A stretch of DNA of 64,000 nucleotides from Parahoeflea halophila (GTDB lineage: Bacteria; Pseudomonadota; Alphaproteobacteria; Rhizobiales; Rhizobiaceae), in assembly GCF_900220985.1 (NCBI RefSeq), contig NZ_OCPC01000001.1:124001-188000 (forward strand), read 5' to 3'. Made by a program: the position numbers and the translations under genes. Shown here in pieces: positions 4,243 through 14,360 of this stretch. Under the pieces are notes generated by a model. That model searched no databases, was not told the origin of the DNA, and saw nothing but the letters and a program-made list of their open reading frames with translations. Within the stretch, counting starts at the first letter, position 1, and each line of letters begins with the position of its first letter.

Positions 4243-4316
4243 GGCCTCGTGGCGGAGTGGTTACGCAGAGGACTGCAAATCCTTGCACCCCGGTTCGATT
4301 CCGGGCGAGGCCTCCA
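4243..4316 (+). tRNA. tRNA-Cys (GCA)
   Basis: 74-nt cloverleaf with a perfect 7-bp acceptor stem (GGCCTCG/CGAGGCC), discriminator T, and encoded CCA at 4314-4316. The anticodon loop reads CTGCAAA, anticodon GCA. The T-arm GGTTCGATTCC is normal. Confidence 0.97.
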
Positions 4317-4800: not shown

Positions 4801-4875
4801 TCCCCGGTAGCTCAGTGGTAGAGCAATCGACTGTTAATCGATCGGTCGCTGGTTCGAATCCGGCCCGGGGAGCCA
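4801..4875 (+). tRNA. tRNA-Asn (GTT)
   Basis: 75-nt tRNA with acceptor stem TCCCCGG/CCGGGGA, discriminator G and encoded CCA at 4873-4875. The anticodon loop is CTGTTAA, anticodon GTT. A strong intrinsic terminator follows directly. Confidence 0.97.
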
Positions 4876-4976: not shown

Positions 4977-5005
4977 TGATCCGTCCCTTACGTAGTTCCG
5001 TAAGA
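4977..5005 (+). promoter_or_regulatory. RpoE/ChrR-type (ECF) promoter for the photolyase operon
   Basis: TGATCC at 4977-4982 and TAAGA at 5001-5005 with exactly 18 bases between. This matches the promoter pattern described for sigma-E (RpoE) of Rhodobacter sphaeroides. The predicted start of transcription is about 40-45 bases before the photolyase ATG. The same pattern with the same spacing occurs before the ChrR-like gene at 13132-13161. Recognition by a sigma-E homologue is inferred. Confidence 0.72.
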
Positions 5006-5055
5006 GACATTCAAAAGCCTCGGCGACTTTCGCCAATACGGAAAAAATACATCGC

Positions 5056-6516
5056 ATGGAACACCACACCTCCCTTTTTCAGGCTCCGGCCATTGTCTGG
5101 TTCCGCAACGATTTGCGGACCGCGGACAATGAGGCTCTGGTCGCCGCCTGTCAGCACAGCGCGGTTGTGCCGGTCTATATCCGGCAAACCGGGGGCAAGG
5201 CACGTGCTCTCGGCGGTGCCCGGAACTGGTGGCTGCACAAGTCCTTGGCCAGCCTTTCGAATGATCTGGGACGGCTTGGTGCGCCACTGATCCTGCTTAG
5301 CGGTGACCCCACCGATCTGATCCCCGAGCTGGTCAAGTCCACCGGCGCATCCGCAGTCTACTGGAACAGGCGCTACGATCCTCAGCACCTCGAGGCTGAT
5401 TCGAATCTCAAGACCGCTCTTCAGGCCCAAGGCCTTATTGTGGAAAGTTTCGCCGGACAGCTGTTGCACGAGCCAAAGAAACTGCGCGCCGGATCCGGCA
5501 GTTACTACAAGGTCTACAGCCCATTCTGGCGGGCGCTCGAACCCGACATTGAAAACCGCCCGCCGCTTGATGCGCCCGAGCAGTTGATTTTTCTGGATTG
5601 CGCTTCAGACCTCACGACGGAATCGCTCGACGATTGGGACCTGCTCCCCACAACGCCTGACTGGTCTGGGGGGCTGAACGATACATGGACACCCGGTGAA
5701 ACCGGCGCCCACGAGCGCCTTGCCGACTTTCTCGAAGAACGTATGCAGGGCTATGCCGACCGCCGCGACATTCCGGGCGTTGATGCCACCTCCGGCCTGT
5801 CCCCGCATCTTGCCAGCGGCGAGATCACCCCGGCGCAGATCCTCGAGGCACTCAAGACCACGGAAAATGATGCGGCCCCTGATGACCGCAGCAAGTTCCG
5901 CAAGGAAGTCGGCTGGCGTGAATTCGCCTGGCATCTTCTGTGCAACGAGCCCTCGCTCGCTGAAAAGAATCACAATCCGAAGTTTGATGCGTTCCCATGG
6001 CGCGATAATTCAAAAGCTCTGACAGCTTGGCAAAAAGGCCTGACCGGCTACCCGATTGTCGATGCGGGCATGCGCCAGCTCTGGCAGACTGGCTGGCTGC
6101 ATAATCGTGTCCGCATGATTGTGGCTTCCTTTCTCACCAAGCATCTGCTGATCGACTGGCGCACTGGCGAGGACTGGTTCTGGGACACGCTCGTTGACGC
6201 AGACCCGGCGTCCAATGCCGCAAGCTGGCAGTGGGTTGCCGGCTCAGGCGCCGACGCCGCGCCCTACTTCAGGATCTTCAACCCGGTGCTTCAGGGCCTG
6301 AAATTCGATTCCGACGGCGACTATGTTCGCCGCTTCGTGCCCGAGCTGGCCGGGATCCCGAACAAGTACATACACAAGCCGTGGGACGCTCCCGGCAAGG
6401 TGCTTGACGCTGCAGGTGTGCGCCTGGGCGACACCTACCCTCACCCGATTGTCGACCATCAGCTGGCGCGCGACCGCGCTCTGGCTGCCTATCAAGAGAT
6501 CAAGGAAGCCGCATGA
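5056..6516 (+). CDS. phr: Deoxyribodipyrimidine photo-lyase / cryptochrome family
   Basis: 486 residues. Light-driven repair of cyclobutane pyrimidine dimers, using FADH and an antenna chromophore. The N-terminal alpha/beta domain opens with IVWFRNDLRTADNEAL (residues 13-28). The C-terminal FAD domain has WREFAWHLLCNEP (about 286) and GYPIVDAGMRQLWQTGWLHN (about 330). The dimer-binding strip WQWVAGSGADAAPYFRIFNP is near residue 392. These conserved Trp-bearing stretches favour a true class I photolyase. It is the first gene of a tightly packed operon; its stop overlaps the next ATG by 4 bases (ATGA). It sits behind a sigma-E-like promoter, consistent with a photo-oxidative stress role. Confidence 0.93.
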   Translation: MEHHTSLFQAPAIVWFRNDLRTADNEALVAACQHSAVVPVYIRQTGGKARALGGARNWWLHKSLASLSNDLGRLGAPLILLSGDPTDLIPELVKSTGASAVYWNRRYDPQHLEADSNLKTALQAQGLIVESFAGQLLHEPKKLRAGSGSYYKVYSPFWRALEPDIENRPPLDAPEQLIFLDCASDLTTESLDDWDLLPTTPDWSGGLNDTWTPGETGAHERLADFLEERMQGYADRRDIPGVDATSGLSPHLASGEITPAQILEALKTTENDAAPDDRSKFRKEVGWREFAWHLLCNEPSLAEKNHNPKFDAFPWRDNSKALTAWQKGLTGYPIVDAGMRQLWQTGWLHNRVRMIVASFLTKHLLIDWRTGEDWFWDTLVDADPASNAASWQWVAGSGADAAPYFRIFNPVLQGLKFDSDGDYVRRFVPELAGIPNKYIHKPWDAPGKVLDAAGVRLGDTYPHPIVDHQLARDRALAAYQEIKEAA

Positions 6517-7853
6517 ACGTCCATCTGAAGGCCTTTCCAGTCAAGCCCGGGCCACACCGTCTGAAAGTGGCTGTCATCGGTTCCGGCATTTCCGGTGCCT
6601 CGGCCGCCTGGGCCTTGCGTGATCTGCACGACGTCACGCTCTACGAGGCGGAGAAACGGGCCGGCGGCCACACCGCCACGGTCGACATCGACTATGACGG
6701 CACGCCTCTGTCCGTCGACACCGGATTCATCGTCTACAACGAGCTGAACTATCCGAATCTGACGGCGTTGTTCGCCCATCTCGGCGTGCAGACCCATGAC
6801 AGCGACATGAGCTTTGCCCTGTCGCTTGACCACGGCAAGATGGAATGGAGCGGCGACAATCTCTGGACACTGTTTGCCCAGAAACGCAATCTGCTGCGTC
6901 CGTCCTTCCTGCTGATGCTGCGCGAGATCCTGCGCTTCAACAAGCTCTGCCTGCAGGACCGCGCCCGGGGCCACCTGGCTGCCCGATCGATCGGCGACTA
7001 TCTCAACTGGCGCGGATTCTCACCGGGCTTCATGAACAACTACCTGGTGCCGATGGCCGCTGCCATCTGGTCGACGCCGGCCAAGAAGATGATGGAGTTC
7101 CCGGCGACCTACTTTGTCAATTTCTTCGAAAATCATCGCCTCATCCATCACGAGCGGCCGACCTGGCGCACCGTGACCGGTGGCAGCCGCAACTACCACA
7201 GGAAGCTGCTCGAGCCGTTGGGCGACCGGGTGAGGCTCGATGCCGGTGTGGTCTCTGTCCGCCGCAGCGCCGATGGTGTTGACATCCTCGACACCACCGG
7301 AACCACCGAAACCTATGACCGGGTCATCATCGCCTGCCACACCGATCAGGCGCTACGCATGCTCGACCGGCCGACCGACGAGGAACAGTCGATCCTTCGT
7401 GCAATTCCCTACAGTCCCAACCGCGTCGTTCTACATCGCGACAAAAGACTGATGCCGACGCGCAGGAAGGTCTGGGCATCGTGGAACTACCTGCGGTCGT
7501 CCAGCCAGAGCAGCGACGCCAATGTCGCGGTCTCCTACTGGATGAACCGGCTGCAGGGCATCGACCCTGCCAAGCCGCTGTTTGTCACCCTGAACCCGGA
7601 CCGCGAACCGGATCCGAAACTGGTCTTTGGCGAATACAGCTACGACCACCCGCAATTCGGCACCGATGCGATGGAGGTCCAGGCGCAGCTACGGCGGATC
7701 CAGGGTCACAACAACACCTATTTCGCCGGTGCATGGACCGGCTACGGCTTCCACGAGGATGGCCTGACCTCGGGCATCCTCGCCGCCGAAGCCCTAGGCG
7801 CGGTTCTGCCGTGGCGCACCGGCACGGCCCAAATCACGGAAGTGGCCGCATGA
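6513..7853 (+). CDS. FAD/NAD(P)-dependent oxidoreductase (amine-oxidase/desaturase fold)
   Basis: 446 residues. The Rossmann dinucleotide motif VAVIGSGISGASAAWAL (residues 19-35) is followed by LYEAEKRAGGHTATVDIDYD, typical of the flavin amine-oxidase/phytoene-desaturase-like superfamily. A C-terminal FAD-closing segment is TYFAGAWTGYGFHEDGLTSG. The start overlaps the photolyase stop (ATGA), and its own stop overlaps the DUF1365 start the same way, so translation of the three is probably coupled. In R. sphaeroides a similar enzyme in the sigma-E regulon takes part in making furan fatty acids, so modification of membrane acyl chains is a reasonable inference here. Substrate is not shown by sequence. 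Confidence 0.85.
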   Translation: MNVHLKAFPVKPGPHRLKVAVIGSGISGASAAWALRDLHDVTLYEAEKRAGGHTATVDIDYDGTPLSVDTGFIVYNELNYPNLTALFAHLGVQTHDSDMSFALSLDHGKMEWSGDNLWTLFAQKRNLLRPSFLLMLREILRFNKLCLQDRARGHLAARSIGDYLNWRGFSPGFMNNYLVPMAAAIWSTPAKKMMEFPATYFVNFFENHRLIHHERPTWRTVTGGSRNYHRKLLEPLGDRVRLDAGVVSVRRSADGVDILDTTGTTETYDRVIIACHTDQALRMLDRPTDEEQSILRAIPYSPNRVVLHRDKRLMPTRRKVWASWNYLRSSSQSSDANVAVSYWMNRLQGIDPAKPLFVTLNPDREPDPKLVFGEYSYDHPQFGTDAMEVQAQLRRIQGHNNTYFAGAWTGYGFHEDGLTSGILAAEALGAVLPWRTGTAQITEVAA

Positions 7854-8707
7854 CCACGGAAGTGTCCCACGATGACCCGGCAATGGACCACGCAGCTACG
7901 CCCCCACCGGCCTGCCTTTACGTAGGTGATGTCATGCATCAGCGCATGAAACCGGTCGGTCACAGGTTCCGCTACCGGGTCTACTCCATGCTGATCGATC
8001 TCGACCGCCTCGACGAGGCCGACCGGCTGTCACCGCTGTTTTCGGTCAATGGCCGCAATGTGATGTCGTTTCACGAAGCCGATCATCTGCGCGGTGCATC
8101 GCAGCCGTCGCTGCGCGCGCATATTGACACCTTGCTGGAGCAAGCGGGGCTTGACCTGCCCGCCGCGCGTATCGAACTTGCCTGTTATCCGCGCATCTTC
8201 GGCCGCGTCTTCAACCCGCTCTCGGTCTACTACGCCTATGACGACGCTGGCGAGCCGCTGGCGCTCGTCTACGAGGTGCGCAACACCTTTGGCGAAAACC
8301 ACACCTACGTCTGCAGGGTCGAAGAGGGTGACGTCACGCCGGCCGGCATCCGCCAGAGCCGCTCCAAGATATTCTACGTCTCGCCCTTCGTCAAAATGCA
8401 GGCCCGCTACAATTTCCGGATGAACCTTCCCGGAGAAAACCTGAAATGGCGTATCCTCGAAACCGACCCGACGGGCCCGCTGCTGGCAGCGACGTATAAT
8501 GGCAACAGGCGAGCCCTGACGACCGCGACAGTGTTGAGCTTGCTCTTGCAGATTCCGCTGCTGACGTGGAAGATTGTCGGCGGCATCCACTACGAGGCGC
8601 TGAAATTGTGGCTCAAGGGGATGCGATACGTGCCGCGCCCGGCGCCGCCTCCCAGTGCGAGTTTTCGCGATCAGGGAGAGTTCGAACGTCAGGTGGCGAG
8701 ACCGTGA
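7850..8707 (+). CDS. DUF1365 family protein
   Basis: 285 residues from the ATG overlapping the previous stop. Family-typical segments include PACLYVGDVMHQRMKP near the N-terminus, HRFRYRVYSMLIDLDRL, YPRIFGRVFNPLSVYY and ENHTYVC. DUF1365 has no settled biochemical role. It is very often found between an FAD oxidoreductase and a cyclopropane-fatty-acyl-phospholipid synthase homologue, as here, so a part in membrane lipid modification is likely by context only. No signal peptide is seen. Confidence 0.88.
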   Translation: MTTEVSHDDPAMDHAATPPPACLYVGDVMHQRMKPVGHRFRYRVYSMLIDLDRLDEADRLSPLFSVNGRNVMSFHEADHLRGASQPSLRAHIDTLLEQAGLDLPAARIELACYPRIFGRVFNPLSVYYAYDDAGEPLALVYEVRNTFGENHTYVCRVEEGDVTPAGIRQSRSKIFYVSPFVKMQARYNFRMNLPGENLKWRILETDPTGPLLAATYNGNRRALTTATVLSLLLQIPLLTWKIVGGIHYEALKLWLKGMRYVPRPAPPPSASFRDQGEFERQVARP

Positions 8708-8744
8708 CGGATGAGTTGTTGGCGAGTCGGAGGAGGCTGCGTTC

Positions 8745-9995
8745 ATGAAGTCTGAAGCCACCTGGAACGAACATCAATCCATAGAAAAATTGTCGACGGA
8801 CAACCTCTCGACCTATCTGCGCGGGCTCCCGGCCAAGGCCAAGATGGCATTGCGCGGGCTTCTGCACATGGGGCATGGCCGGCTGTCGATTCGCATGCCC
8901 GACGGCCGCACCGTGATGATCGAAGGACGTGCCGAGGGGCCCGATGCCTGCCTGATCCTGCACAACTGGAACCTGGCACATCGTGCGCTGACCGGCGGAA
9001 CCATCGGCGTGGCCGAATCCTACATCGATGGCGATTGGGAGAGCCCGGATGTGACGGCCTTTCTCGAGTTGTTCCTGGTCAATGTCGAGGTCGGCGACAC
9101 GCTGGCCGGCGGCGCACGCGGCATCGCCCGGCTTGTCGAATTGGTGCGCCACTGGCTGCGGTCCAATTCACGCAGCCAGGCCAAAAAGAACATCTCGGCC
9201 CATTACGATCTTGGCAACACGTTCTACTCGAAATGGCTTGATGAGACGATGACCTATTCGGCGGCGCTCTATGCCGACGGCGCCAATGACCTAACCAGCG
9301 CGCAGACCGCCAAGTACCGCGCTTTGGCGCAGGCCGCCGGCCTGAAGGCGGGCGACCGCGTTCTGGAGATCGGTTGCGGCTGGGGCGGCTTTGCCGAGTT
9401 CGCCGCACGCGAGATCGGCTGCCACGTCACAGGGCTGACCATTTCCCGCGAACAGCTGGCCTTTGCCCGCCAGCGCATTGAAAAGGCAGGTCTGTCGGAC
9501 AACGTGGAACTGCGTTTCCAGGATTACCGTGACGAAACCGGCCAGTATGACGGAATTGTCTCGATCGAGATGTTCGAGGCTGTGGGCGAGAAATACTGGC
9601 CGATCTATTTCTCCAAGGTTCGCCAGTGCCTCAAACCCGGTGGCAGGGCCGGGCTGCAGATCATCACCATCAAGCCGGACGCCTACGAGGCCTACCGTGC
9701 CAATCCGGATTTCATCCAGCGCTACGTGTTCCCCGGCGGCATGCTGCCGACCGAAAACCATCTCAAGACGCTGGGCGAAACGGCAGGCCTCGACATGCTC
9801 GGACACCGAGCCTTTGGCCCCGATTACGCCCGCACGCTGGCCGAATGGCGGCAGCGCTTCTGGGACGCCTGGGAGGAGATCCAGCCAATGGGCTTCGACC
9901 AGCGCTTCAAGCGGCTGTGGGAATTCTACATGCATTACTGCGAAGCCGGGTTCCGCTCCGGACACATCAATGTCCGCCAAGTGGTCTACGGCTGA
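8745..9995 (+). CDS. Cyclopropane-fatty-acyl-phospholipid synthase-like methyltransferase
   Basis: 416 residues. SAM-dependent methyltransferase that adds a one-carbon unit to unsaturated acyl chains of phospholipids at the membrane. The start at 8745 has a strong GGAGGA 9 bases upstream. The family landmarks are AKKNISAHYDLGNTFYSKWL (about residue 145), the SAM site VLEIGCGWGGFAEFA (about 206) and the active-site region SIEMFEAVGEKYWP (about 270). It could be a true Cfa or a UfaM-like methylase of the furan fatty acid pathway; sequence reading cannot separate them. It is the fourth gene of the photolyase operon. Confidence 0.9.
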   Translation: MKSEATWNEHQSIEKLSTDNLSTYLRGLPAKAKMALRGLLHMGHGRLSIRMPDGRTVMIEGRAEGPDACLILHNWNLAHRALTGGTIGVAESYIDGDWESPDVTAFLELFLVNVEVGDTLAGGARGIARLVELVRHWLRSNSRSQAKKNISAHYDLGNTFYSKWLDETMTYSAALYADGANDLTSAQTAKYRALAQAAGLKAGDRVLEIGCGWGGFAEFAAREIGCHVTGLTISREQLAFARQRIEKAGLSDNVELRFQDYRDETGQYDGIVSIEMFEAVGEKYWPIYFSKVRQCLKPGGRAGLQIITIKPDAYEAYRANPDFIQRYVFPGGMLPTENHLKTLGETAGLDMLGHRAFGPDYARTLAEWRQRFWDAWEEIQPMGFDQRFKRLWEFYMHYCEAGFRSGHINVRQVVYG

Positions 9996-10112
9996 TCAGC
10001 CGGTTTTGTGAGCTCATCCCGCTGAAGCTGGCTCCGGCGGGGTGAACCAAATGCAGCCTCTACGCGTAGTCAGGACTGCAGCTGAACCCGTAACCATGCC
10101 GGTGCCGGGGTT

Positions 10113-11510
10113 TTGGCCAACCACCGGGTTTACGTTTTGGCGACAGCTTCTGACCTCACCCCCGATCTTGCGTCTGAAGAGCGCGAGCGCCCGAAAGCCT
10201 CGCCCCTCGCCCTTTTGCGCATTGCTGCCTATGCTTTGCCGGCCATTCCCCTGGCTGCGCTCACACTGCCGCTTTATGTGCTGGTGCCGACCTTCTACAC
10301 CGAGACCCTGGGGCTCTCGCTCGCCTCGGTCGGTTTCGCCCTTTTGTTGGTGCGGATCTTCGACGCGGTCAACGATCCGCTGATCGGTTGGGCCGCCGAC
10401 CGGTTCCGTCCCCGCTTCGGCCGCCGCCGCACGCTGTTTGCCATCAGTCTGCCGTCGACGGCAATCTCAGCCTTCATGCTGTTCTGGCCGCCAGTCAACG
10501 CCGGCGTGCCGTGGCTGGCGGGCTGGGGCCTGTTGCTGTCGCTCGGCTACACCGCCGCGCTGATTCCGTTTTCAGCCTGGGGCGCCGAGTTGGCCACCGA
10601 TTACCACGGCCGCTCCCGCATCACCGCCTGGCGCGAGGGCCTGACCCTGGTGGGAACCCTGGTTGCCATCGCCCTGCCCTTTGCCATCGGCTTCGAGCAG
10701 GCAAGCGGCCTGCATGGTCTGGCGGTGTTGGGGCTGGCCATCCTCATTGCACTTCCGCTGTTCGGTGCAACAGCCACTCTCGCGACGCCTGAGCCGGTCG
10801 AGCATTCGCGCATGCGTGTCGACCTGAAGGCCGGTTTGAAGCATCTGGTCGGCAACCGGCCCTTCGTCCGCCTCATCGTGGCGTTTTTTCTCAACGGGCT
10901 GGCCAACGGCATACCGGCCACCCTGTTTCTCTATTTCGTCTCGGCACGGCTCGGTTTGCCCGAGGCGCGGGGACCGCTTCTGTTTCTCTATTTCCTCTGT
11001 GCCATCGCCGGTGTGCCGCTTGCCGCATGGGCGGCCCGGCGCGTCGGCAAGCACCGCGCCTGGTGCTATGCCATGCTGGCTGCTTGCGTCGCCTTTGCGC
11101 CGGCACCGCTCTTGCCCGAGGGAGCGTTTGTGGCTTTTGCAGCAATCTGCGCCCTGACCGGCCTGCTTCTCGGCTTCGATCTCTCGCTGCCGCCGGCAAT
11201 CCAGGCGGACGTCATCGATGTTGATACTGCCTCCTCCGGCGAGCAGCGTTCGGGCACCTATTTCGCCGTCTGGAGCCTCGCAACCAAGCTCTCGCTTGCC
11301 GGCGGCGTCGGGATCGTGTTCCCGGCCCTCGCCATGTTCGGCTTCGATCCCGGCACTGAATCAGGCTCGACGCAGGGATTGACGGCCCTGGCCATTGCCT
11401 ATGCCTGGGTGCCGATTGCCGCAAAGCTGATCAGCATTGCCATCATGTGGAATTTCCCGCTTGACGAAGCCGCGCAGAAGTCGCTGCGCAGCCGGATTGA
11501 AACAGCGTGA
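10113..11510 (+). CDS. MFS transporter, GPH-like (MFS_2) family
   Basis: 465 residues from a TTG start (GGGG just upstream); a later TTG at 10137 is possible. About 12 membrane helices are visible, starting at LLRIAAYALPAIPLAALTLP. The cytoplasmic loop RIFDAVNDPLIGWAADRFRPRFGRRR is the sugar-cation symporter (GPH) signature. The substrate is unknown. It lies 117 bases after the methyltransferase with no clear terminator between, so it probably belongs to the same operon; a similar MFS gene occurs in sigma-E-linked clusters of other alphaproteobacteria. Its stop is 9 bases from the stop of the convergent SDR gene. Confidence 0.83.
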   Translation: MANHRVYVLATASDLTPDLASEERERPKASPLALLRIAAYALPAIPLAALTLPLYVLVPTFYTETLGLSLASVGFALLLVRIFDAVNDPLIGWAADRFRPRFGRRRTLFAISLPSTAISAFMLFWPPVNAGVPWLAGWGLLLSLGYTAALIPFSAWGAELATDYHGRSRITAWREGLTLVGTLVAIALPFAIGFEQASGLHGLAVLGLAILIALPLFGATATLATPEPVEHSRMRVDLKAGLKHLVGNRPFVRLIVAFFLNGLANGIPATLFLYFVSARLGLPEARGPLLFLYFLCAIAGVPLAAWAARRVGKHRAWCYAMLAACVAFAPAPLLPEGAFVAFAAICALTGLLLGFDLSLPPAIQADVIDVDTASSGEQRSGTYFAVWSLATKLSLAGGVGIVFPALAMFGFDPGTESGSTQGLTALAIAYAWVPIAAKLISIAIMWNFPLDEAAQKSLRSRIETA

Positions 11511-11519
11511 GCCGACAGG

Positions 11520-12323
11520 TCAGCCGGTCTCCAGTGGCCGTTTCTTCCAACCGGTAGCCGCATTCATCAGCCAGAAGTAGGCGGGATAGGGCAGAAACTG
11601 CAGCGCCTTGAGGACATAGGTGAAGCGGCGCGGAAACGTGATCTCGAATGCACCTGACTTGAGCCCCTTGGCGATGCGATCGGCCGCCTGCTCGGGCTGC
11701 TGCAGCGCCGGCATCTCGAACGCATTGTCTTCCGTGGCCGGCGTATCGACAAAGCCCGGATTGATCACCTGGATGCGCACGCCGAACTTGTCGAGATCGA
11801 ATTTCAGGCTTTCGGCCATATTGATCAGCGCCGCCTTGGTGGCGCCATAGGCCGCACTTGTCGGCAAACCGCCATAGCCGGTGACCGAGGAAACGATGGC
11901 GATCTGGCCGCGGCCGCGGGATTTCATTCGCTCGATCGCCGGCACCAACCCATTGACCACGCCGGACAGATTGACTGCGAAAGTCTTGTCGAAATCTGCA
12001 ACCTTGAGCGTTTCGCCGTGAACCGGCAGATACACCCCGGCATTGAACACCGCCAGTGCCAGGCCATTGCCTTCGGCATCAACGCGCCCCGCGATCTCGG
12101 CCATCGTCTTAGTGTTGGTCACATCGCCGGGTGCCGCAACAATCCGGCCCTTGAGATCGGCAGACCGGTCCGCGAGCTCGGACAACGCATCTTCGCTGCG
12201 CGCCGTGACAAAGACCGTGTATCCCTCGCGCGCCAGATCCAGCGCCAACGCCTTTCCGATGCCGCTTGAGGCGCCGGTTACCCAGGCTGCTCCGTCTGCG
12301 GGTTTGGCGGTAAAACTGGTCAT
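11520..12323 (-). CDS. Short-chain dehydrogenase/reductase (SDR)
   Basis: 267 residues. NAD(P)-dependent oxidoreductase of unknown substrate. The cofactor motif is VTGASSGIGKALALDLAREG (TGxxxGxG, about residues 16-35), FNAGV corresponds to NNAG, and the catalytic Ser/Tyr/Lys are in IVSSVTGYGGLPTSAAYGATKA. The C-terminal hydrophobic stretch FLPYPAYFWLMNAATGW may touch the membrane. The ATG at 12323 is chosen for its GGAG 6 bases upstream. The gene follows the ChrR-like gene on the same strand, but a strong terminator hairpin sits directly in front of its ribosome binding site. Confidence 0.88.
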   Translation of the reverse strand: MTSFTAKPADGAAWVTGASSGIGKALALDLAREGYTVFVTARSEDALSELADRSADLKGRIVAAPGDVTNTKTMAEIAGRVDAEGNGLALAVFNAGVYLPVHGETLKVADFDKTFAVNLSGVVNGLVPAIERMKSRGRGQIAIVSSVTGYGGLPTSAAYGATKAALINMAESLKFDLDKFGVRIQVINPGFVDTPATEDNAFEMPALQQPEQAADRIAKGLKSGAFEITFPRRFTYVLKALQFLPYPAYFWLMNAATGWKKRPLETG

Positions 12324-12337
12324 GCGTATCTCCAATC

Positions 12338-12376
12338 AAAAAGGCCGTCTGGAACATGATACGTTCCAGACGGCCT
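12338..12376 (-). terminator. Intrinsic terminator between ChrR-like gene and SDR gene
   Basis: Perfect 14-bp inverted repeat (AGGCCGTCTGGAAC / GTTCCAGACGGCCT, 12342-12376) with a 7-base loop, read on the minus strand and followed by a run of five T. It ends only 14 bases before the SDR start codon, leaving no space for a separate promoter. Confidence 0.85.
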
Positions 12377-12405
12377 ATTGGTTCAAATTCAGAAGTGTCA
12401 GCGGC

Positions 12406-13050
12406 TCAGCCGATGAGGTCGCCGATCAGCTGCCGGAACGACCCGGTCAGTTTCAAGGGCGCATCCATCACCGCGAAGCCGATGCACGGACGGCCGCTGT
12501 CGGCGCTCGGGCGGTGGTCGACCGAATCATCGGCCACCGAGATATCGCCGCGGCCGTAATGCCCGCGCCCATCGCTGAACGCGCCGTCCAATACCAGCGA
12601 CAACTCGCAGCCTTCGTGGGTATGGGCAGGTACCGTCCGGCCGGGCTTGATCCAGAACAGGTTGACATGGCAGCCTTCGATGTCGCCAAGCTCATATTCC
12701 TTGAACCCTGGCATCTTGGTACGCCACGGCACATCATCCGCATCAAAGCCGACGAAATCATAAAGCGCCTTGGGGAAGATCCGCTCTTCGCCGCCGCGCA
12801 TCCCGGTAACGGGCGCCGGTGCAGGGGAGCCAAGCACTGCAGCCAGCATCGCATCGCGATTGTCGAGCGCAGCTGGCTCGACGTCCATCAGCTCAAGTCC
12901 GGCCATGGCTTCCAGATTCGCAATCTTGCGCCGGTTGTCCGCCTTCAATTCCAGATGTGCTTCTACGAGGACCCGCGCCGGGGTCGGAAGAGTCCCGGCG
13001 ACATACCGGGCAAGAAGCGAGTCGATTGTATCGATGTGTTCACGCACCAT
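12406..13050 (-). CDS. ChrR-like cupin protein with degenerate anti-sigma zinc site
   Basis: 214 residues from ATG 13050, close to the 213 of R. sphaeroides ChrR; an ATG at 13092 would add 14 residues with no counterpart. The N-terminal half follows the ChrR anti-sigma domain (SLLARYVAGTLPTPARVLVE, then HLELKADNRR). His5 and His32 are kept, but the two zinc cysteines are Lys36 and Asn39. The C-terminal cupin keeps its likely metal ligands HTHEGCE and DHRP. ChrR normally restrains RpoE until singlet oxygen appears. No sigma gene lies next to it. It may be a ChrR paralogue that senses or competes rather than a working anti-sigma factor; that role is inference. Confidence 0.82.
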   Translation of the reverse strand: MVREHIDTIDSLLARYVAGTLPTPARVLVEAHLELKADNRRKIANLEAMAGLELMDVEPAALDNRDAMLAAVLGSPAPAPVTGMRGGEERIFPKALYDFVGFDADDVPWRTKMPGFKEYELGDIEGCHVNLFWIKPGRTVPAHTHEGCELSLVLDGAFSDGRGHYGRGDISVADDSVDHRPSADSGRPCIGFAVMDAPLKLTGSFRQLIGDLIG

Positions 13051-13131
13051 GCGTATCAAGCTTTCCACAATTTCAACGACCGCCTCACCCATGAAGGTGA
13101 AACCATCGCGTAGACATGTTCCAATTGTGTC

Positions 13132-13161
13132 TCCTTACGCCCGGCGGCGCAATACGGATCA
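13132..13161 (-). promoter_or_regulatory. RpoE/ChrR-type (ECF) promoter for the ChrR-like gene
   Basis: On the minus strand TGATCC (13156-13161), an 18-base spacer, then TAAGGA (13132-13137). It differs by one base from the element before the photolyase operon and has the same spacing. The start of transcription would be about 75 bases before the preferred ATG at 13050. Confidence 0.7.
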
Positions 13162-13322: not shown

Positions 13323-14360
13323 ATGCCAGCCATCAGCTCTGTTCTCGACGCCATCGGCAACACGCCACTCATTCGCCTCAATGCCGCGTCGGAAGCCACG
13401 GGCTGCACCATTCTGGGCAAGGCGGAGTTTCTCAATCCCGGCCAGTCGGTCAAGGATCGGGCTGCGCTCGAGATCATCCGCGACGCTGAAGCCAAGGGTT
13501 TGCTGCGTCCGGGCGGAACAATCGTCGAAGGAACGGCAGGCAACACCGGCATCGGCCTCGCCATGGTGGCGCGCGCGCTTGGCTACAAGACCGTCATCGT
13601 GATCCCGGAAACCCAGAGCCAGGAAAAGAAGGACGCCCTGCGCCTGCTCGGCGCCGAACTGGTCGAGGTTCCGGCCGCCCCGTACCGCAATCCCAACAAT
13701 TATGTCCGGCTGTCCGGGCGTCTTGCCGAGCAGATTGCCAAGACCGATCCACGAGGCGCCATCTGGGCCAACCAGTTCGACAATGTCGCCAACCGCCAGG
13801 CCCATGTGAAGACCACGGCGCCGGAAATCTGGCACGACACTGACGGCAAGGTCGATGGCTTCATCTGCGCCGTGGGTTCGGGCGGAACGCTTGCCGGCGT
13901 CGCAGAAGGCCTGCGCGGCCGGACCAAGTCGGTCAAGATCGGTCTCGCCGATCCCGATGGTGCAGCACTTCACAATTTCTACACCAATGGCGAGATGAAA
14001 TCGTCAGGTGGATCGATCACCGAAGGCATCGGCCAGGGCCGTATCACCGCCAACCTCGAAGGCTTCACGCCCGACATGTCGTTCAACATCCCCGATTCGG
14101 AAGCCATCCCGCTGGTGTTTGAGCTTCTCGAAAACGAAGGCCTTTGCCTTGGCGGTTCCTCCGGCATCAATGTCGCCGGCGCCATCCGCATGGCCCGGGA
14201 GATGGGGCCCGGCCACACCATCGTGACCATCCTGTGCGATTACGGCAACCGCTACCAGTCCAAGCTGTTCAACCCCGAATTCTTGCGGTCGAAGGATCTG
14301 CCGGTACCCGAATGGCTGAATCGCACCAGCGACCTTTCTGTCCCCTTTACCAATGAATGA
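13323..14360 (+). CDS. cysK: Cysteine synthase A (O-acetylserine sulfhydrylase)
   Basis: 345 residues. PLP enzyme that makes cysteine from O-acetylserine and sulfide in the cytoplasm. The PLP lysine is Lys44 in NPGQSVKDRAA; the asparagine loop EGTAGNTGIGLAM and phosphate loop CAVGSGGTLAG follow, and GGSSGINVAGA is near the C-terminus. ATG 13323 has AGGA just upstream; the frame is open further upstream, but that part has no homology to the family. Its stop overlaps the AlaX start (ATGA), suggesting coupled translation. Confidence 0.93.
   Translation: MPAISSVLDAIGNTPLIRLNAASEATGCTILGKAEFLNPGQSVKDRAALEIIRDAEAKGLLRPGGTIVEGTAGNTGIGLAMVARALGYKTVIVIPETQSQEKKDALRLLGAELVEVPAAPYRNPNNYVRLSGRLAEQIAKTDPRGAIWANQFDNVANRQAHVKTTAPEIWHDTDGKVDGFICAVGSGGTLAGVAEGLRGRTKSVKIGLADPDGAALHNFYTNGEMKSSGGSITEGIGQGRITANLEGFTPDMSFNIPDSEAIPLVFELLENEGLCLGGSSGINVAGAIRMAREMGPGHTIVTILCDYGNRYQSKLFNPEFLRSKDLPVPEWLNRTSDLSVPFTNE

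Follow-up and report, generated by a model that had tools for sequence, protein, structure and literature searches.

The stretch of DNA analysed here, referred to below as the window, comprises 64,000 nucleotides of the Parahoeflea halophila genome (RefSeq assembly GCF_900220985.1, contig NZ_OCPC01000001.1, positions 124,001 to 188,000 of the forward strand) and carries two opposed transcription units, one headed by a photolyase-family gene (phr) and the other by a gene for a ChrR-like protein. This island probably belongs to the regulon of an extracytoplasmic function (ECF) sigma factor of the ECF11 type that is encoded on another contig, C3, of the same genome, with the ChrR-like protein as its anti-sigma factor. 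That reading draws on the likeness of the C3 sigma to RpoE of Rhodobacter sphaeroides, the co-occurrence of the two genes across genomes, the promoter pattern, trees in which both partners part from their linked counterparts, and a structural model of the ChrR-like protein. We read the system as an anciently split variant of RpoE-ChrR with rewired feedback and, putatively, zinc-free inhibition. A preliminary description, made from the window alone, had called this a stress island without its sigma factor and suggested control in trans. The latter is borne out, as an ECF11-type sigma without an adjacent chrR lies on a different contig; the former is true of the island and not of the genome. The order-wide extent of the split and the loss of the zinc cysteines from ChrR had been missed.

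The genome that holds the window (4,185,998 bases in 15 contigs, 99.99% complete) has seven matches to sigma-70 region 2. One is a 683-aa frame of RpoD length; the six others, read by eye, are two RpoH and four ECF-type factors. Among the latter, the frame at C3:266601-267173 has R. sphaeroides RpoE as its best match in the PDB (2q1z_A, E 1.5e-45), followed by SigK at 4.9e-19, and it is the sole match of such kind in the genome at E 1e-20. Its predicted ECF11 type is assigned by this closest solved relative rather than by the ECF11 group model.

Each of the two opposed units carries its own copy of one promoter type, so that the single shared promoter of the preliminary description gives way to two. 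The TGATCC-N18-TAAG sites that it placed before the units are present at 4977-5004 (plus) and 13134-13161 (minus) and are the only two in the window with spacers of 16-19; shuffles of the window contain on average 0.19 TGATCC-N16-19-TAAG sites, and 3 of 100 shuffles reach two. The genome is read here as Hoeflea from its closest named relatives, whose ChrR-like protein is 92% identical; NCBI places Hoeflea in Rhizobiaceae, order Hyphomicrobiales. Promoters were compared in 12 named relatives (ten labelled Hoeflea, one Rhizobium albus and one Pararhizobium haloflavum). TGATCC-N16-CGTA stands upstream of the chrR-like gene in all 12. Upstream of phr, CGTA is found in 11 of the 11 relatives whose locus reaches that far and TGATCC in 10 of them, with TGATCT in the remaining one (L028), and TAAG is retained in just 5 of 12 (chrR-like) and 2 of 11 (phr). 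Because CGTA, not TAAG, is conserved across relatives, TAAG is rejected as the −10 element in favour of CGTA, which begins two bases before it; the TGATCC element and the sigma-E/ECF11 type first proposed for both promoters are upheld. A scan of the whole genome with the TGATCC-N18-TAAG-type pattern has low selectivity (9 matches, against 2 in a reversed control). TGATCC-N15-17-CGTA is sharper, with 20 matches (9 with spacer 16) against 0 in the reversed control; within the window alone it performs no better than the TAAG pattern, and many of the 20 sites fall within long reading frames. The elements that define the two units are as follows.

4977..5002, plus strand: TGATCC-N16-CGTA, predicted promoter of the sigma-E (ECF11) type, 53 nt 5' of the phr start codon, conserved in relatives
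5056..6516, plus strand: phr, cryptochrome/photolyase-family protein of 486 aa, first gene of its operon (Pfam FAD_binding_7, DNA_photolyase)
12406..13050, minus strand: chrR-like gene for a putative anti-sigma factor of 214 aa (TIGR02451, PDB 2z2s_B match, ligand alignment, model)
13136..13161, minus strand: TGATCC-N16-CGTA, predicted promoter of the sigma-E (ECF11) type, 85 nt 5' of the chrR-like start codon, conserved in relatives

Co-occurrence was followed through two genome groups around the genome holding the window, the family (199 genomes) and the order (249 genomes). Family calls were made at E ≤ 1e-20 for the sigma (94 of 117 matches; 23 weak ones with 29-38% identity and E 7.6e-25 or worse were dropped) and E ≤ 1e-10 for the ChrR-like protein (all 91 matches), and pairs were termed linked when their starts lay <2 kb apart on the same contig. 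The family has 49 linked pairs, 45 unlinked sigmas and 42 unlinked ChrR-like genes. Identity to the Hoeflea sigma is at least 56% in 43 of the unlinked sigmas, and the two at 36-38% (G079, G159) were set aside. By genome, 42 carry both lone genes, one carries the lone sigma alone (G053, 88% complete) and none the ChrR-like gene alone. Five family pairs share a contig, at distances of 1.1 to 2.7 Mb, and the rest lie on separate draft contigs. In the order, where the ChrR-like threshold was E ≤ 1e-35 and sigma typing covered 54 of 133 matches (the most similar ones and those from ChrR-like-bearing genomes), the ChrR-like gene occurs in 50 of 249 genomes, three of them of the family, and an unlinked sigma accompanies it in 50 of 50; nine pairs on one contig are 1.0 to 5.3 Mb apart. 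ChrR matches adjoining the lone sigma were absent from all 26 order loci, as were ChrR matches within 2 kb from all 43 family loci. Among plasmid records, matches were found only below 60% identity (61 and 82 records).

Trees built by a quick method divide both partners in the same way. One branch separates 64 unlinked from 33 linked sigma rows (SH-aLRT 91), and one branch separates 72 split-type from 28 linked ChrR rows (support 97). With far outgroup sequences added, the split-type sigmas are not a single clade, so either type may be the older. Two genomes, G103 and G175, carry a linked and a split pair together. In both, the linked operon has a promoter spacer of 15 (L131, L132) and the lone chrR one of 16 (L074, L077), which possibly keeps apart two sigmas that share a motif.

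The promoter counts divide the two partners. Upstream regions were searched over 300 bp (family) or 350 bp (order) for ChrR-like genes and over 500 bp for lone sigmas; the loci taken in were 42 family and 30 order loci for ChrR-like genes (the latter out of 47 outside the family), 30 of 43 family and 26 order loci for lone sigmas, and 19 of 49 family and 13 order loci for linked pairs. A perfect TGATCC-N15-17-CGTA stands upstream of the lone ChrR-like gene at 39 of 42 family loci, where shuffling leads one to expect about 0.01 loci, and the same pattern does so at 26 of 30 order loci. As a positive control, linked rpoE-chrR operons were scanned as well, with the promoter present at 17 of 19 family and 10 of 13 order loci. 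It was not found upstream of the C3 sigma, nor of any lone sigma in the family (0/30) or order (0/26), nor before the G053 lone sigma and seven further lone sigmas of a mixed set. These counts place the inhibitor and targets of the split type, but not its sigma, under a sigma-E-type promoter, and the ECF11 hallmark of a directly downstream chrR in an autoregulated operon is absent from the lone sigmas. Sigma and putative anti-sigma factor appear to have been long unlinked, each in a conserved neighbourhood of its own. An IalB-family gene (Pfam) lies within the fetched flanks of the lone sigma at 30/30 family and 23/26 order loci; the lone-sigma loci compared are that of C3 (L014, C3:265389-268592) and L034-L063, L177-L196 and L227-L232. 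In three Hoeflea genomes, conserved blocks occur 5' of the lone sigma, and the TGATCC element is not among them. The last residues of the Hoeflea sigma, 'MTMH', were considered as the remnant of a former chrR start, a reading that was set aside; other split-type sigmas have different ends.

The ChrR-like protein is recognizable along most of its length. It passes TIGR02451 (150.2 bits; cut-off 124.5), and R. sphaeroides ChrR (PDB 2z2s_B) matches it over most of its length at E 1.7e-31. An AlphaFold model (mean predicted local distance difference test score 71, from a shallow alignment of 13) has ChrR of the SigE-ChrR complex as its closest structure (E 2.2e-13). Its start is more likely at 13050, with a conserved MVREHID, than at the 13092 first proposed; the gene descriptions otherwise stand. 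Ligands were counted in 72 split-type and 28 usable linked rows, R. sphaeroides included, with 5 of 33 linked rows incomplete and uncounted. The reference zinc ligands of the anti-sigma domain are H6, H31, C35 and C38; by alignment, 72 of 72 split-type proteins lack C35, C38 and H6, and 65 retain H31. The Hoeflea protein has a histidine at position 5, which does not align to H6. The linked rows keep C35 in 26 of 28 and C38 in 25 of 28. The zinc-binding anti-sigma signature H/C-x24/25-H-x3-C-x2-C is thus lacking in the split type, where H-x3-C-x2-C occurs in 0/72 proteins, compared with 25/33 linked ones (5 incomplete). The cupin metal ligands H141, H143, E147 and H177 are kept throughout (72/72 split, 28/28 linked), and split-type cupin domains have a cysteine at position 187 in 72/72 and at 189 in 36/72. 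Homology and co-occurrence point to an anti-sigma factor that would bind and inhibit the sigma. In R. sphaeroides, zinc in the anti-sigma domain of ChrR is reported to be required for sigma binding and inhibition (PMC6852236). The zinc cysteines of that domain have been proposed as the singlet-oxygen sensor, zinc-finger sensing by ChrR is described as under debate, and the singlet-oxygen response is reported to require the cupin domain as well (PMC6432622).

The remaining genes of the island, with one flanking gene, are listed below.

6513..7853, plus strand: ufaD-like (RSP1091-type) FAD amine-oxidase-family protein (Pfam Amino_oxidase), 4-base overlap with phr
7850..8707, plus strand: ufaO-like (RSP1090-type) DUF1365 protein (Pfam DUF1365), 4-base overlap with ufaD
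8745..9995, plus strand: CMAS-family methyltransferase, probably ufaM (Pfam CMAS)
10113..11510, plus strand: MFS_2 (GPH-type) transporter (Pfam MFS_2), exact start codon uncertain
11520..12323, minus strand: short-chain dehydrogenase (SDR), 3' of the chrR-like gene (Pfam adh_short)
13323..14360, plus strand: cysteine-synthase-family gene, flanking the island and outside the regulon (NCBIfam PRK10717.1)

Pfam families and gene order of the three putative Ufa homologues would fit the furan fatty acid pathway. The order ufaD-ufaO-ufaM is that of Rhodopseudomonas palustris RPA2571-2569. RSP1090 is presumably a DUF1365 protein. The 8745..9995 gene is probably ufaM and could instead encode an ordinary cyclopropane synthase. 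The name ufaD rests on family and gene order (compare PMC7380195). The likeness of the gene set to the R. sphaeroides regulon that was first noted holds, with a photolyase and, probably, furan-fatty-acid genes. The island and its cysteine-synthase-family neighbour keep the same order in relatives wherever the locus extends (L023 stops within the SDR gene, and the MFS gene of L021 matches as two overlapping pieces), and family loci have an SDR gene near the split-type chrR in 29/30 and a cysteine-synthase-family gene in 30/30. Outside the island, a tRNA-Asn gene (4801-4875) ends about 100 bp 5' of the phr promoter, and a tRNA-Cys gene (4243-4316) lies farther upstream.

The promoter type extends beyond the island. 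In three of three Hoeflea genomes (G000, which holds the window, G046 and G139), both phr and the chrR-like gene have a perfect site upstream. By their downstream open reading frames these appeared to be the sole shared sites, a view overturned by comparison at the DNA level: a third site is common to G000 (C11:181259) and G139 (C21:163984), directly 5' of some 112 nt that close with a hairpin and T-run resembling a terminator. This stretch is oriented toward the end of a gene read as hisG. Searched in 18 genomes of the genus, the stretch had matches in 13 and a true locus in 11 (G000 C11:181259-181400, as L119 and L275, and L276-L285); G454 and G449 gave short weak matches only, and G046 and four more genomes none. 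TGATC[C/T]-N16-CGTA lies directly upstream at 11 of 11 loci, perfect in 10 and TGATCT in G455. The G000 and G139 stretches fold more stably than their shuffled versions (z −3.3 and −4.1, respectively). The consensus of the 11 aligned sequences has three stems with 27 pairs, 11 of which changed at least once on both sides, and leaves the CCCCGATCTGA and CCCGAT stretches unpaired. Rfam yielded nothing above gathering score; suhB/mmgR (RF00519) matched at 23.1 to 26.6 bits, against a gathering score of 41, at 4 of 11 loci. A 100-nt probe run against the 199 family genomes, with few candidates scored per genome, recovered two Hoeflea genomes only. The stretch probably encodes a small RNA that depends on sigma-E and belongs to the regulon.

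The sigma gene rpoH2, which sigma-E is reported to control directly in R. sphaeroides (PMC6852236), appears to be a partial target here. Among 30 loci drawn from 61 genomes, TGATC[CT]-N15-17-CGTA precedes rpoH2 in 4/9 split-type, 1/4 linked-type and 0/17 genomes with neither pair; the RpoH2 assignment follows from an orthologue in G139 that matches the NCBIfam sigma-32 model. G000 has the TGATCT variant, 62 bp upstream. With 4 of 9 split-type genomes, rpoH2 was not retained as a core target, and rpoH1 was rejected since its upstream TGATCC-N16-TAAG element lacks CGTA. A GGAAC-CGTT element, which we take to be of the EcfG kind, occurs before rpoH2 in 10/17 genomes without an ECF11 pair, 2/9 split-type and 2/4 linked-type genomes, which suggests that control of rpoH2 passed between sigmas. 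A gene pair, consisting of a 324-aa frame (presumably diacylglycerol-kinase-like) and a small membrane-like protein, has a perfect site before its first gene in G000 (L108, C2:996053) and before its second in G046 (L235, C1:769443); it may be another target, one whose promoter has moved. Distances between ufaO and the lone chrR, typed in 54 of 109 ufaO genomes, were ≤6 kb in 25 of 42 split-type genomes, 6 to 25 kb in 9, and larger or across contigs in 3, with ufaO not found in 5 when checked against the full list.

In the proposed working of the system, which is predicted from sequence in its sigma-ChrR interaction, zinc independence, signal, feedback signs and RNA transcription alike, the sigma would be made from a promoter outside its own recognition and then held by the ChrR-like protein, whose helical anti-sigma domain would bind it without structural zinc. 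A stress signal, singlet oxygen or peroxides, would be received by the cupin domain, by way of the metal site and a single invariant cysteine there, and the freed sigma would transcribe from TGATCC-N16-CGTA. In a negative arm the sigma would raise its anti-sigma factor and the SDR; in a positive arm it would raise the photolyase, UfaD, UfaO and the UfaM-like enzyme, with the small structured RNA (most Hoeflea) and rpoH2 (some species) as further outputs. UfaD and UfaO are assigned to the positive arm because ufaD and ufaO of R. sphaeroides are reported to be required for destruction of ChrR under singlet oxygen (PMC3818230, PMC6852236). The wider proposal, for which we see the balance as even, is an order-wide ECF11 branch of the Hyphomicrobiales with an unlinked pair of inverted wiring, in which the inhibitor and the targets are induced by the sigma but the sigma itself is not, a zinc-free ChrR that senses via its cupin alone, and a Hoeflea small RNA with C-rich loops in the regulon.

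Several observations weigh against placing the island under the C3 sigma with ChrR as its inhibitor. Since reference ChrR requires zinc, a zinc-free domain might fail to bind. A lone sigma occurs with no ChrR-like match at E 1e-35 in G282, G306, G272 and G205. Among loci of the ChrR-like gene, 3 of the 42 in the family and 4 of the 30 in the order are without the promoter; the family ones (G080, G140, G047) are all among the five of 42 split-type genomes without ufaO, and G080 is also without the SDR gene. Conversely, ufaO is present where the ECF11 pair was not detected, as in G007, G030 and G049, and would there be under other controls. The co-occurrence counts are not independent events, as the split type largely follows families in the sigma tree, and a Fisher p computed on them overstates their independence; swaps of split and linked type within one genus, though they occur (G058 versus G146; G177 versus G105), are few. 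One rival reading is that the ChrR-like protein lost its anti-sigma function and is now a cupin sensor or enzyme and a mere target, with the sigma held otherwise or only transcriptionally. We regard this as unlikely. The loss of every zinc ligand but H31, in a protein whose R. sphaeroides counterpart needs zinc to inhibit, speaks for it, but the lone sigma and ChrR-like gene co-occur nearly perfectly (42/43), the helical N-terminal domain is retained in sequence and model, no ChrR-like replacement was found beside the lone sigma in a search confined to that kind of anti-sigma factor, and zinc-free class I anti-sigma domains such as those of RseA and RskA are described as functional (PMC7406223).

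The promoters might also be read by another sigma, leaving C3 with a separate regulon and the motif as an inherited relic. Three more ECF-type sigmas in the genome, as judged by their translations, would be available for this. We consider it very improbable, as the motif precedes linked rpoE-chrR operons of the family (17/19) and is the ECF11 motif there, and as the rpoH2 element is confined in the comparison above to genomes with an ECF11 pair (0/17 without, 4/9 split-type). That the two sites are chance matches unrelated to regulation has some appeal from the TAAG pattern, with its 9 genome matches against 2 in the control, and from the many CGTA sites inside long frames, but conservation in 12 relatives and at 65 of 72 ChrR-like loci, where about 0.01 is expected among 42 family loci, leaves it with almost no probability. 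Regulation of the island by the C3-encoded sigma, with the ChrR-like protein as anti-sigma factor, is the reading that we prefer.

Gene set, promoter and regulon are those of the known RpoE-ChrR system (PMC3818230, PMC6852236, PMC7380195). The R. sphaeroides system is alike in its ECF11-type sigma, two-domain ChrR and TGATCC promoter, and common target types include photolyase, ufaD, ufaO, ufaM and, in some species, rpoH2. For photolyase as an R. sphaeroides target, the comparison follows the preliminary description. In R. sphaeroides, rpoE and chrR are reported as a single operon that has an RpoE promoter and lies close to RSP1091-1087 (PMC3818230); here the sigma is unlinked and without that promoter, chrR has its own, and C35, C38 and H6 are missing. 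Should inhibition and response both persist in split-type ChrR, the zinc cysteines would be dispensable for either, and the 72 of 72 split-type proteins that lack them may be a natural test of singlet-oxygen sensing by zinc cysteines. The system would also be a case of an ECF sigma without positive self-regulation whose regulon is kept, and a small RNA would add to its outputs.

Mixing of zinc and zinc-free anti-sigma domains inside one group is known in general, and a large survey is described as having gathered anti-sigma domains only up to 10 genes from the sigma gene (PMC7406223), a limit by which unlinked pairs would be missed. In the open PMC literature we did not find unlinked ECF11 pairs or cysteine-free ChrRs described; mention elsewhere is possible. 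RseA and RskA resemble split-type ChrR in that their helical anti-sigma domain has no zinc site (PMC7406223). They are not known to carry the ChrR cupin domain, which split-type ChrR retains with its metal ligands. The suhB/mmgR family is matched weakly by the Hoeflea RNA over the terminator and C-rich stretch, whereas the promoter and upstream stem are, as far as tested, not shared. The R. palustris RPA2571-2569 genes have the same ufaD-ufaO-ufaM order, and the pathway was tested there (PMC7380195), whereas here phr heads the operon, opposite a chrR-like-SDR unit. Also comparable is Rhizobium etli CIAT 652, for which a chrR homologue is mentioned whose 'rpoE was missing', in an ambiguous sentence that, as printed, has 'no' RSP_1091/1090 homologues near it (PMC3818230). 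Beyond that mention, the missing sigma is located here and the arrangement proves to be general.

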